Source: Chthoniobacteraceae bacterium
GTDB lineage: Bacteria > Verrucomicrobiota > Verrucomicrobiia > Chthoniobacterales > Chthoniobacteraceae
Assembly (NCBI GenBank): GCA_947471505.1
Contig: CANIWM010000052.1
Span: 1 to 46,337, forward strand
Direction of reading: 5' to 3'
DNA length: 46,337 nt
The translations under genes were made by a program, and so were the position numbers. Positions 34,739 through 39,878 of this stretch are shown here, piece by piece; positions within the stretch are counted from its first letter, which is position 1, and each line of letters begins with the position of its first letter. The notes beneath the pieces are model-generated. The model saw only the letters and a program-made list of their open reading frames with translations, ran no database searches and was not told where the DNA came from.

Positions 34739-34835
34739 CGTAGCTCGACTTTCCAAAGTCGAGGTTGGACGTTTCCAACAGAGAGAACGCCCTGCTTTTC
34801 CCGACGCTCACTCGACATTGGAATGTTGAGCTACG
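34739..34835 (+). repeat. Palindromic ~97-bp repeat element, copy 1
   Basis: The element runs from CGTAGCTC to GAGCTACG. Its left arm is a hairpin CTCGACTTT-cc-AAAGTCGAG (34744-34763) and its right arm is CTCGACATT-gg-AATGTTGAG (34811-34830), so the two ends are inverted copies of each other. The middle (GACGTTTCC through CCTGCTTTT) matches the reverse complement of copy 2 at 35317-35414. By eye the copies are roughly 80% alike over their full length. Confidence 0.8.
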
Positions 34836-35077
34836 TTTTTGCCCCCCCATCTTCCAAGGGTGCCCAAGTCGGGCAAATCTGCCCCTGCCCGACGCCCTTT
34901 CGTGGAGCGGCGGCCCCCTTTTGAGACTGTCTCTCAAAAAGGCGCCATTAGAGACGGCCCTTTCGTGTGTCGCTCATGCTCAAGTGTGCCAAGTTCCCAA
35001 ACGTAGAACCACGTCCGCCCACTTTACAGAGGTCGGGAGGGTCATTTTGTCCCTTTTCGCCCTGTCTCAACCGTCAG
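34836..35077. other. Gene-free DNA between repeat copy 1 and the tandem array
   Basis: I see no convincing gene here. It contains further hairpins: GTCGGGCA (34868-34875) paired with TGCCCGAC (34886-34893), and TTTTGAGA (34919-34926) paired with TCTCAAAA (34932-34939). A frame starting at 34967 runs on into the tandem array, but its first 37 codons have no recognisable features. Confidence 0.6.
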
Positions 35078-35347
35078 GGTGCCTCCGACATACGTCAGGG
35101 CATCGCCGACATACGTCAGGGTGCCGCCGACATACGTCAGGGTGCCGCCAACATATGTCAGGCACTCGCCGATATACGTCAGGACATCACCGATATACGC
35201 GAGGCACAGGGCGACCTACGCAATGCACACGCCGACATACCAAAGGGAGCCGGGCAGGCACGAAAGGACCATGCCGATGGTCGAAAGAGCCTGCCCGACA
35301 TACAAAAGGCACGCGCCGTAGCTCGACATTCCAATGTCGAGTCGTAG
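34967..35347 (+). CDS. Doubtful coding frame with heptad repeats
   Basis: This frame would encode 126 residues with about eleven seven-residue units of the pattern xxADIRQ, a coiled-coil-like periodicity. The unit repeats end at SLPDIQK and the frame runs into the left hairpin of repeat copy 2. No ribosome-binding site, signal or domain outside the array supports translation, and other frames over the array are equally open. I list it because heptad-coding minisatellites can be real genes. Confidence 0.2.
   Translation: MSLMLKCAKFPNVEPRPPTLQRSGGSFCPFSPCLNRQGASDIRQGIADIRQGAADIRQGAANICQALADIRQDITDIREAQGDLRNAHADIPKGAGQARKDHADGRKSLPDIQKARAVARHSNVES
35078..35308 (+). repeat. Tandem array, eleven 21-bp units
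   Basis: Eleven contiguous 21-bp units share the core GCCGACATACGTCAG. The first four differ by only a few bases, units five to eight diverge further, and the last three keep only traces, so the array decays from left to right. Because 21 is a multiple of three, all three forward frames stay open. In the frame from 34967 the units spell heptads such as GAADIRQ and ALADIRQ, which would make a short coiled coil; the other frames give PTYVR-type and RRHTSG-type repeats. There are no spacers, so it is not a CRISPR array. It stops eight bases before repeat copy 2. Confidence 0.85.
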
Positions 35348-35414: not shown

Positions 35415-35858
35415 CCGCCTTCCCGCCTTTGTCCGCTCCACGATGGCGGGTTCTTTTTTGACGAACAGCGCGGTCACACCCTTCGATGTCCGCGCCGGAC
35501 GATCAAGGAGGGGGGCTTTCCTAAGCCCCCTGTGCCGAAAAGTGAAAAGCAGCGGCAGACAGCGGCGCACGGACGGGATCGGCCCCAAGGAGGGGGAACG
35601 TCTCGTTCCCCTGAACCACGAAGTGGTTCCCGGTTGCTCGCAGTTGAAGAGCGGCGCTTCGCGCCTCAGGGGAACGGGACGTTCCCCCTCCTTGAGGGCT
35701 TTCGCCCTTTTCGTGCCGTTCCTGTCGCATTCCTCTTTTAATCACACCCGGAAAACGGCCCTCCCGAGTATTCGGCCTTGGCTGCACCTTTCCCGACAAG
35801 TCGGGACAGACGGGGCTTAGGAAAAGCCCCGCGCCCATCCGGCTCGCACGCCGCCCTC
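35415..35858. other. Gene-free, hairpin-rich remainder of the island
   Basis: No gene is evident in these 444 bp. Apart from the 109-bp element listed separately, it holds a pair of inverted hairpins: GGGGGCTT-tcct-AAGCCCCC (35511-35530) and GGGGCTT-aggaa-AAGCCCC (35812-35830). Read on opposite strands the two are near-identical. A perfect palindrome TCCCGAC-aa-GTCGGGA lies at 35791-35806. The second pair lies just past the 3' end of the SEC-C gene and could act as its terminator. Confidence 0.6.
35586..35694. repeat. 109-bp element with 29-bp terminal inverted repeats
   Basis: The left end (35586-35614, opening CAAGGAGGGGGAACGT) and right end (35666-35694) are inverted repeats that match at 28 of 29 positions. 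Each end is itself a hairpin (GGGGAACG facing CGTTCCCC), and a further perfect hairpin GAACCAC-gaa-GTGGTTC lies at 35613-35629. There is no coding content. Size and nested palindromes resemble the other small elements in this window, but the sequence is different. Confidence 0.75.
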
Positions 35859-37913
35859 CTATGCGCGGAGGATCTTTATTTTCCGATCGAGGTCGCGGCG
35901 GTTGATGAGGGCGAAGAGTTGAACGCGGTCAGGGTGAAGGCGGAAGAGCAGACGGTGGTCGATGCCGATGCGTTGGCGGTACATGCCGCCGGGGATGGCT
36001 TTGAGGGCGACGACTCCGGAAAATGCGGCGGGCTCTCCCCCGGCGAGTCGGCCCGCCATGGCGAGGGCGGCGCGGGCGATGTGTTGGGGGAAGTCGTCGA
36101 GGGATTCACGGAATTTTGGCGGAAATTCGATGATGCGGAGGGGCTGGTTGCCGCTGGGTTGCTCGGGGAGGTAGTGTCGGGCTTCATCGTCGGCGTGGTC
36201 TTCGGGGGCTGGGGCGGCGGCTTTGCTGCGGGTGGCTTCGAGGACGTCGCGAGCTTTTTCGAGTTCGCGGCGGAGGCCGGTGCGTTCTTCGGCGCGTTCG
36301 TGGAGGGTGGCTTTGAGGGTGGTGAGTTTTTGGCGAAGGTCTTTGAGTTCGGCCTCATGGGCGGGGGTGGGGGCTTGGGTTTGTTTTTCGTGGCGGTGGA
36401 CTGCGCGGCGCTGGTGTTCGATGTCTTCTTTGAGGGTGCGGACTTCGGCGGCTTTGGCGTCGAGCCGTTTGCGGGCGGTGCGGAGTTCGGCGGCGTCTTT
36501 GCCGTCGTCGCCCGTTTCTTCGGCGATGCGTTTTTCGAGGATGTCGCTGTATGGGTCGTCGGGCGGGAGATTGAGTTTGTCGTGGGCGCGGAGGATTTCG
36601 TTGAGGAGGGAGCTGCCTTCTTTTGTGGGGATGAGTGGGATGAGGCTGCGGCTGACGAGGATGCCGAGGGCTTTGTGGCGTGAGTAGAGGAGGTCGTGGC
36701 CGTGCTCGGAGAGTCTTTCTGGGTCGGTTTCTTTCAGTATGGCTGATGCGATTCTGGCAAGGAGGCGCAATTCTTCGGCAGGATCATCCCGTGCAACGAG
36801 GAGGCGGAATCCGTCGCGAAGTTTCTCTGTGGATTGGTTTCGCTCGGCCACTGCGATCATGCGGGCAGCAAGTTCTTTTTCCTCCGCACGCATGAGGAAG
36901 AAAGCGGTGAAGTACCAGCGTTTGGGACTTTCATCCGTCCATTCAGCGCGTTCAAAGTATTCGACGACTGGCTCGTAGAGCCCGAGCGAAACGGCGCGCA
37001 TAATGTAGTTGATATGGAGGACTTCGGGGATTTTGAAGGGGTCGAGCTGCGCTAGCTCGTAGCGCTGCATTTTTTCGAGGCGGTGGATGGTGAGCCCGGT
37101 CTCGGGGGCGTCGCGAAGTTCTGCGTGGGTCTTGCCGGCGACTGCGGTGGAGAGGTGGAGTCGCTCTTGGTCTTTGTCGAAGCAGCAGCGTTTGTATTTT
37201 TTCCCGCTGCCGCAGTGGCAATCGTCGTTGCGCCCGAGTTTTTCGACTGCGCGGCGCATGGTAACCCCGGCGGCCACGTGTCTTGGCGGTGCGTCAACGA
37301 CCATTTCCATGACGGGCCGCCGTGCGATGTCGAGAATCGCATCGGTGACTTTCTGTAGGGCATCCAAGACGGGACGACCTGCCTCGCCGTAGATGGGGAG
37401 TTGGAGGATCGTATTGAGGGCCGCGTCGTTCACGATCTGGGCGATACATTGGAGCACAGCCTGAACTTCACGCCGAAGGTTTTTGTTGCGAGCGAGTGCT
37501 TTGGCCTCCGGGAGAAACTCATCCGGCAGGGCCCCGCCCTTATGGTCACGGCACCAAACGGCGGTGAGCAGCAGTGCTACGCCCGTGTGCTCGTGGGGGA
37601 TGCCGCCGCGTTTTATCACCCCGATGAGTGCGCCGGGGATGTCTCCATCCATCTTCCACACGAGATTCGTAAATCGGTGGTGGTCGCCCGTCATCGAAGC
37701 TGCTTTGACCATGTGCCGCACATCCACCCGGCGAGCGGTGTCGAGTGCTGCTGTAAGCACGAACAAAAACCCGAAGATGTCGTTGTGGGCGACGGTTTCG
37801 CCTACCAGCGCGTCGAGTTCGGCATCGCTCGCTGGAAGCAGCGCGGCGACTGCGCGGACGGTACCTTTGTGGAAGGTGGAGTGGTCAATGAGTTCTCGGA
37901 GCGTAGGGTCCAT
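35859..37913 (-). CDS. SEC-C zinc motif / coiled-coil / RelE-like fusion protein
   Basis: A 684-residue protein with an unusual architecture. Residues 1-225 are helical and unrecognised. A SEC-C zinc motif follows, GRNDDCHCGSGKKYKRCC, with Cys232, 234, 243 and 244. Residues about 280-460 form a helical, TPR-like region, and about 472-562 a charged coiled coil. Residues about 591-684 read as a RelE/ParE-superfamily domain: IIEFPPKFRESLDDFPQHI, then GGMYRQRIGIDHRLLFRL, VQLFALINRRD and a basic tail. SEC-C motifs in SecA and YecA contact ribosomes, and RelE enzymes cut mRNA on ribosomes, so a ribosome-directed role is a plausible inference. No antitoxin gene is adjacent. I start at 37913; the frame extending to 38309 would overlap the divergent gene. 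Confidence 0.85.
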   Translation of the reverse strand: MDPTLRELIDHSTFHKGTVRAVAALLPASDAELDALVGETVAHNDIFGFLFVLTAALDTARRVDVRHMVKAASMTGDHHRFTNLVWKMDGDIPGALIGVIKRGGIPHEHTGVALLLTAVWCRDHKGGALPDEFLPEAKALARNKNLRREVQAVLQCIAQIVNDAALNTILQLPIYGEAGRPVLDALQKVTDAILDIARRPVMEMVVDAPPRHVAAGVTMRRAVEKLGRNDDCHCGSGKKYKRCCFDKDQERLHLSTAVAGKTHAELRDAPETGLTIHRLEKMQRYELAQLDPFKIPEVLHINYIMRAVSLGLYEPVVEYFERAEWTDESPKRWYFTAFFLMRAEEKELAARMIAVAERNQSTEKLRDGFRLLVARDDPAEELRLLARIASAILKETDPERLSEHGHDLLYSRHKALGILVSRSLIPLIPTKEGSSLLNEILRAHDKLNLPPDDPYSDILEKRIAEETGDDGKDAAELRTARKRLDAKAAEVRTLKEDIEHQRRAVHRHEKQTQAPTPAHEAELKDLRQKLTTLKATLHERAEERTGLRRELEKARDVLEATRSKAAAPAPEDHADDEARHYLPEQPSGNQPLRIIEFPPKFRESLDDFPQHIARAALAMAGRLAGGEPAAFSGVVALKAIPGGMYRQRIGIDHRLLFRLHPDRVQLFALINRRDLDRKIKILRA

Positions 37914-39324: not shown

Positions 39325-39651
39325 TCAGGCCAACTTCCAGCCCATGCTTGCGTTGATTTTGTCCACGATCTGTCGGCGACGAATTTGAGTTACGCTACCA
39401 CGCTTCTTGTTGAGCTTGGACTTTTCGACGAGCCATAGGGCGTCGCAGCGGCAGAGGGTTTCCCAGTCGAGGCCGTCTGCGCCATTGAGTCGAACTTCAG
39501 TTTCTTTGGGCGGTCGATTTGCTCGCTGAGTCGTGCAGAAGAGGACGTTCACCCACTCGGCCTTCGCGACGCGGTCGGGGTGCGAGACGATGACGGCGGG
39601 ATGCGGGCCAGCTTCACCGAAGTCGTAGGTGTAGATGTCCCACGGCTTCAT
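39325..39651 (-). CDS. PemK/MazF-like toxin
   Basis: A 108-residue protein of the MazF/PemK family, which are ribonucleases that cut mRNA at short sequences. The opening MKPWDIYTYDF, then PHPAVIVSHPD, corresponds to the RPAVVVS strand of the fold. The middle has VLFCTTQR and ETEVRLNGADGLDWETLCRCD, and the end RRRQIVDKI is the usual C-terminal helix. The family's serine/threonine near the substrate pocket may be in the FCTTQ segment. Its ATG overlaps the stop of the antitoxin gene by four bases, the classic antitoxin-first layout. Confidence 0.88.
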   Translation of the reverse strand: MKPWDIYTYDFGEAGPHPAVIVSHPDRVAKAEWVNVLFCTTQRANRPPKETEVRLNGADGLDWETLCRCDALWLVEKSKLNKKRGSVTQIRRRQIVDKINASMGWKLA

Positions 39652-39878
39652 ACTTCGGCGGGTGTCGGCACGCGAAGGCGGCGGGCCAGCTTGGTTTCTT
39701 CGGAGTTGTCGGCCTTGGAGTAGAGGTGTTTGAGGCTTCCCGGCGGGAAGTTTTCGCCCTCAGTTTCTTGCAGTTTCCTTAGTGCAGCGCGGACCACTTC
39801 GCTCGCGCTGTTGTAGCGACCCGATTCGACGAGATTGTGAATGAAACCTTCCCAGTGATTTGTCAGCGCGACGTTCAT
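39648..39878 (-). CDS. ParD-like ribbon-helix-helix antitoxin
   Basis: A 76-residue protein. The N-terminal half MNVALTNHWEGFIHNLVESGRYNSASEVVR is a ParD-type ribbon-helix-helix DNA-binding domain: a short beta strand, then ESGRYNSASEVVRAALR for the second helix. The flexible C-terminus (LYSKADNSEETKLARRLRVP) would wrap the toxin. Such antitoxins repress their own operon. ParD is usually paired with a ParE-type toxin; here the partner is PemK/MazF-like, so this is a hybrid pair. It overlaps the toxin gene by four bases. Confidence 0.88.
   Translation of the reverse strand: MNVALTNHWEGFIHNLVESGRYNSASEVVRAALRKLQETEGENFPPGSLKHLYSKADNSEETKLARRLRVPTPAEV

Follow-up and report, generated by a model that had tools for sequence, protein, structure and literature searches.

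A single gene in a 46,337-nucleotide contig of a Chthoniobacteraceae bacterium (this whole analysed stretch of DNA is called the window below) encodes a 684-residue protein that joins an internal SEC-C metal-binding motif to a C-terminal domain whose predicted RelE fold is established here by modelling, and this architecture is recurrent and fixed among its relatives, with no conserved partner gene found at the 19 loci compared. RelE domains are normally small toxins that cut mRNA on ribosomes, are dangerous alone and are accompanied by an antitoxin. We tentatively read the protein, at chances a little below even, as a one-gene, cis-controlled RelE-type effector that would be brought to the ribosome by its SEC-C motif and that lacks a recognised antitoxin.

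The gene (35859..37913, minus strand) begins with ATG and encodes 684 amino acids followed by a stop codon; its translation agrees with the open frame and the tail segments quoted in an initial annotation of this DNA, and methionine stands at the shared start column in 12 of 16 aligned rows, the row starts being partly set by hand. The SEC-C motif, described there as intact, is confirmed by translation and by Pfam (PF02810, E 1.1e-6, above the family cut-off) at residues 228-245 (37179..37232, minus), where Cys232, Cys234, Cys243 and Cys244 satisfy the C-x-C-x8-C-C/H site. It lies between an N-terminal helical region (residues 1-218; 37260..37913, minus) and a middle helical region (residues 263-470; 36504..37127, minus), both delimited by whole-protein structure prediction, and a profile comparison of these two regions gave no likeness (probability 0.2). 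The long coiled coil that had been proposed in front of the tail is retained as probable (residues 471-566; 36216..36503, minus): helices are predicted at 471-511 and 517-565, coiled-coil matches to them are weak, and the break near 512-516 differs in length among homologues. A variable linker (residues 567-590; 36144..36215, minus), recognised from the alignment, then leads to the RelE-fold domain (residues 591-684; 35862..36143, minus). The model of the full 684-residue chain is poor (pLDDT 57.8, pTM 0.38) and has no match in the PDB at E ≤ 0.001; no inhibitory contact can therefore be read from it.

The initial annotation had suggested a search of other genomes for the same fusion, and the fusion does recur: 19 members are present in 15 genomes, the window protein included, and the four SEC-C cysteines and the tail are kept in 19/19. 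Among 57 relatives, full-length homologues occur in six genomes (eight copies), the other rows covering the SEC-C region only. Of 384 genomes drawn from the source class at least 10 matched at E ≤ 1e-20, with at least 13 places, and of 387 drawn from the source phylum at least four did, both tallies being lower bounds since mostly three candidates per genome were scored. All 13 places in the class draw extend to residues 680-684. Two of the genomes in the phylum draw were already known, while two (G582 and G614) lie outside the class; their frames of about 700 residues match the profile from roughly position 200 onwards to its end, the N-terminal region being too divergent for a profile match. 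A planctomycete copy (L037), from a collection of named genomes, was the one full-length relative among the best 80 of 437 SEC-C-pattern loci, a scan of contigs that is no census, and this protein, searched against 96 genomes from the phylum to which G582 belongs, matched G582 alone. In a phylogenetic tree it joins three copies from the source class (support 98/86 at that fork), which may reflect either transfer across phyla or incomplete sampling. The family genomes span at least two classes and two phyla. Four genomes (G000, G003, G253 and G279) hold two copies each; in the genome of the window (G000) the second is a paralogue (G000:C25; L021 4705-6918, minus) that is 40% identical and whose tail passes the ParE_like cut-off. 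No family member without the RelE tail was seen at the thresholds used.

In an alignment of 16 proteins only the SEC-C motif is better conserved than the tail, mean pairwise identity being 0.69 for SEC-C, 0.59 for the tail, 0.41 for the coiled coil, 0.35 for the middle region, 0.33 for the linker and 0.32 for the N-terminal region. In the closest pair among five compared (G007 and G001) the tail has dN 0 and dS 0.24, and the whole gene dN 0.083 and dS 0.326. The tail is under purifying selection, and its conservation together with these values indicates that it is a working part of the protein.

The sequence case for a RelE-like tail is carried by the homologues and not by the window protein itself, whose own tail matches are weak. 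Alone, this tail reaches ParE_toxin at E 0.061 and ParE_like at E 0.17, both under the Pfam cut-off, neither family is listed at E ≤ 1 when the whole protein is scanned against Pfam, and an NCBIfam scan of the tail gave no match; a routine scan would thus overlook the domain. Among the homologue tails, 16/16 match PF24732 (ParE_like) at E ≤ 1 (best 9.2e-9), three of 16 match PF05016 (ParE_toxin; best 1.6e-4), a family that includes both ParE and RelE toxins, and two of 16 have weak NCBIfam matches (best 0.076). A profile of 16 tails (those of 15 of the 16 proteins in the full-length alignment plus the planctomycete L037) matched ParE, ParE_like and RelE-type sets with probabilities of 88.8, 77.4 and 63.6, respectively, compared with maxima of 3.9, 5.1 and 1.8 in column-shuffle controls (60 each) and values of 0.3, 1.2 and 0.1 for the reversed profile; a 19-row tail profile gave 80.6, 73.6 and 60.1. 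PF24732 was found at 30 places among the relatives, of which 29 are open frames of 56-202 codons and the remaining one is the paralogue G000:C25, with its tail above the PF24732 cut-off; the window tail is absent from these places. The tail profile also reaches two small frames, G002:C150 (E 1.6e-5) and G008:C76 (E 4.3e-4), which themselves match PF05016 (3.2e-12 and 3.1e-10), and the 19-row profile weakly reached three of 32 extracted stand-alone proteins (best E 0.0017 in a search space of 10,000).

Sequence searches of the PDB with the tail were weak (best 2khe, E 0.69), and a query with the single tail gave unrelated chains. Modelled alone with one homologue, the tail gave a best of five models with pLDDT 86.5 and pTM 0.77, the remaining four having pLDDT 68.8, 64.1, 58.2 and 52.5. 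Foldseek matched the best model to the RelE structures 2khe (E 1.1e-4) and 1wmi (E 3.5e-4), and VIA-align superposed it on YafQ (4q2u_L; Z 11.2, rmsd 2.1, 87 aligned), on the RelE part of Cami1 (8phj_X; Z 10.4, rmsd 3.3, 94 aligned) and on ribosome-bound RelE (4v7j_Ay; Z 9.5, rmsd 2.6, 87 aligned). With RelE and YafQ as top PDB matches, and with the Pfam matches of the homologues, the assignment of residues 591-684 to a RelE-like domain in the initial annotation is borne out. Of the checks it had put forward, the profile search gives matches for the homologue tails and falls under the cut-off with the window tail alone, and structure prediction yields a RelE fold for the tail modelled by itself and only a poor model of the whole protein.

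Residues K52, K54, R61 and R81 of E. coli K-12 RelE align with R646, R648, R654 and R672 of the tail. All four positions carry basic residues in 16/16 tails and in five of five RelE-type proteins, the latter count being partly a matter of choice since the five were picked by eye from 21 PF05016 loci; the set occurs in 0/16 of the other (ParE-type) PF05016 proteins and in 0/11 stand-alone ParE_like proteins, which have Ser at the K52 position and His at the R81 position. These comparisons used 21 of 25 PF05016 loci (L172, L176, L178 and L182 being left out) and 11 of 12 PF24732 loci (without L128, which is the paralogue). R646, R648, R654, R672 and D674 are kept in 19/19 members, and R658 is replaced by Lys in G582. 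The alignment supports the view that the basic residues of the tail are of RelE type rather than ParE type. PF_ParE-like toxins are reported to cluster with the mRNase subcluster that contains E. coli RelE (PMC11980606). In E. coli RelE the substitutions R61A, R81A and Y87A are described as significantly reducing cleavage, whereas K52A and K54A do not (PMC2807027).

In the 16 aligned tails the column of RelE Tyr87 holds K, R, T or C, but it is loosely aligned, since the five RelE-type proteins show a gap, D or L there too; G582 and G614 have Trp at this place as read by eye. The final 16 residues contain no Tyr in all 16 tails, and in 14/16 they contain no Y, F, W or H at all. As the RelE tyrosine is missing, catalysis by the tail is uncertain, and its absence favours the main rival explanation, namely that a RelE fold has been domesticated: the tail would be a fixed, non-cutting module that binds RNA or the ribosome, within a non-toxic SEC-C factor that acts in translation, export or chaperoning. 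The strong constraint on the tail and the lack of a recognised antitoxin fit such a factor, as do the ties of other SEC-C proteins to export or chaperoning (PMC8076867). Yet the R61 and R81 positions, important for RelE cleavage, are Arg in 19/19 members, and a patchy distribution ill suits a core factor. We regard domestication as a real possibility without thinking it probable.

As to the SEC-C motif, a SUMO fusion of the SecA metal-binding domain alone is reported to co-sediment with ribosomes, and the longer C-terminal tail of SecA to crosslink to uL23; the affinity of the lone domain is termed relatively low, and SecA without it binds ribosomes more tightly (PMC6620043). The initial annotation had invoked ribosome contact by the SEC-C motifs of both SecA and YecA; this holds for SecA (PMC6620043); the account found for YecA describes it as a SecB-interacting chaperone (PMC8076867). 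SecB is the other partner of the SEC-C domain of SecA (PMC8076867), and we rejected it as a partner here because it was found in 0/38 relatives, a survey that took in five of the 15 family genomes (G000, G001, G003, G007 and G018); a positive control recovered SecB in four of 14 named genomes. Given that the SecA domain binds the ribosome and that SecB was not found in 38/38 relatives, we infer by analogy that the ribosome is the likeliest known ligand of the SEC-C of this family.

In the preferred effector reading, the helical body and SEC-C would bring the protein to the ribosome, by analogy with SecA. The long helices and the flexible linker would then allow the RelE domain to contact RNA at or close to the decoding site, which it would cleave or at any rate bind; restraint of this activity would come from the same protein or from whatever the protein binds. 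The predicted fold, the recurrence, the lack of a recognised antitoxin and the RelE-type basic residues lend partial support to the earlier idea of an effector that may be ribosome-directed and controlled in cis, of which the proposed partner gene (below) does not survive. Besides the missing tyrosine and the SecA affinity data above, two observations count against the effector reading: a tail so slow to evolve looks less like a typical toxin, and few of the genomes drawn carry the family (at least 10/384 and at least 4/387). In a more specific version, SEC-C would anchor a RelE nuclease close to where the nascent chain leaves the ribosome, and release of the nuclease would depend on the state of the ribosome or of the export process, with no antitoxin involved; this strikes us as rather unlikely.

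Among ten adjacent ORFs, selected for small size or for proximity on the same strand, no antitoxin family was found at E ≤ 0.001, and none is listed within the 684-residue protein itself (Pfam, NCBIfam). The statement that no antitoxin gene adjoins the gene therefore holds for known families; six of the ten ORFs match no Pfam family. The divergent 312-residue gene that had been named as the candidate partner was rejected, as it is present at 0/18 other family loci, some of them short contigs (best tblastn E 0.093); an apparent link to three loci comes from an open frame that overlaps the family gene on the opposite strand. The genome has a distant relative of it at another place, 31% identical over part of the length.

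Several other features of the window were recorded. A palindromic 24-base REP-like repeat at 34740-34763 and 35318-35341 occurs at 58 places in the genome (29 per strand; backward control 0), often in inverted pairs about 72 bases apart, and each exact copy in the window is followed after about 71 bases by a degenerate copy in inverted orientation (34811 and 35390). Between these copies lies an array of a 21-base tandem repeat (35072-35240), one open frame of which reads ADIRQG repeats. An inverted repeat (35583-35697; 41-base arms, 88% complementary, 33 bases apart) lies beyond the 3' end of the gene. The stretch 39325-39878 (minus) has a PemK/MazF-type toxin gene (Pfam E 1.6e-8) with a small ORF upstream of it that matches a phage-family antitoxin profile (E 1.8e-4).

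That the protein serves in defence, its N-terminal and middle regions sensing infection or stress and releasing the RelE domain so that translation stops, as in Cami1, appears unlikely to us. The patchy distribution and the double copies in four genomes would suit a defence effector, and a role of RelE-fold domains in defence has been argued for (PMC11980606). All 16 members match the PADLOC candidate model PDC-S12 (best 1.5e-10); in the window protein the matched stretch, residues 140-245 (37179-37493, minus; E 5.2e-7), ends at SEC-C, and the match may be owed to that motif by itself. Against a defence role, no defence family is clearly recurrent in 54 neighbour proteins, where the maximum among the best 25 of 57 PADLOC families is three (PD-T4-6 and PglW, which we take to be kinase-type models), mad6 and MkoA reaching two; among the best 25 of 105 Pfam families the commonest is that of response regulators, in four. 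No plasmid match was obtained, and 48 pattern matches to the tail in viral contigs included no relative, on which grounds a mobile or viral origin was rejected.

An ordinary toxin, with its antitoxin encoded elsewhere in the genome or of a novel kind, is very unlikely: the tail does resemble toxins that need antitoxins, and most of the adjacent ORFs are without a Pfam match, but no neighbour beyond the span of the gene itself is common to more than three of the 19 loci, some of which are short contigs, and in 19/19 members the tail is preceded by the same parts, with a divergent N-terminal region in G582 and G614. A ParE-type gyrase inhibitor, which the weak match to PF05016 with its ParE and RelE members might suggest, is the least credible of all, as the basic set of 16/16 tails is found in 0/16 ParE-type proteins.

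Among known systems, the protein shares the RelE/ParE fold with Pfam ParE_toxin and ParE_like proteins, and the fold and the basic residues at the K52, K54, R61 and R81 positions with E. coli RelE, which is small and paired with RelB, whereas here the domain is the C-terminal part of a protein of 684 residues and lacks Tyr87. The SEC-C motif is shared with SecA, YchJ and YecA (PDB matches to SecA and YchJ fall at profile positions 212-244), none of which, to our knowledge, has a RelE domain. It is C-terminal in SecA (PMC8076867) and internal here. Cami1, a CARF domain fused to RelE, is reported to cleave mRNA at the A site (PMC11229360). As in Cami1, the RelE domain ends a larger protein, and the tail model superposes on that of Cami1; control in cis, known there, would operate here as well. 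Cami1 has a CARF sensor and is controlled by cyclic oligoadenylate, unlike the present protein with its helical regions, SEC-C and probable coiled coil and with no CARF family among its 11 Pfam matches at E ≤ 1. The multidomain BECR-fold toxins of Gerdes 2025 (fused TA genes, ToxM, ptuXYZ) likewise carry a RelE-fold domain in larger proteins or operons; that survey states that many multidomain members were omitted when an antitoxin was not identified or members were too few, and the words "SEC-C", "zinc" and "coiled" are absent from its main text (PMC11980606). We found no account of a SEC-C plus RelE architecture in the open-access papers searched.

The family thus presents a RelE domain that is a constant C-terminal part of a large protein, is conserved above everything but SEC-C and has no recognised antitoxin. 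If the domain is active, it would represent a second design, beside Cami1, for safely containing a ribosome-directed nuclease in a single protein; if it is inactive, a toxin fold would have been turned into a ribosome or RNA module.
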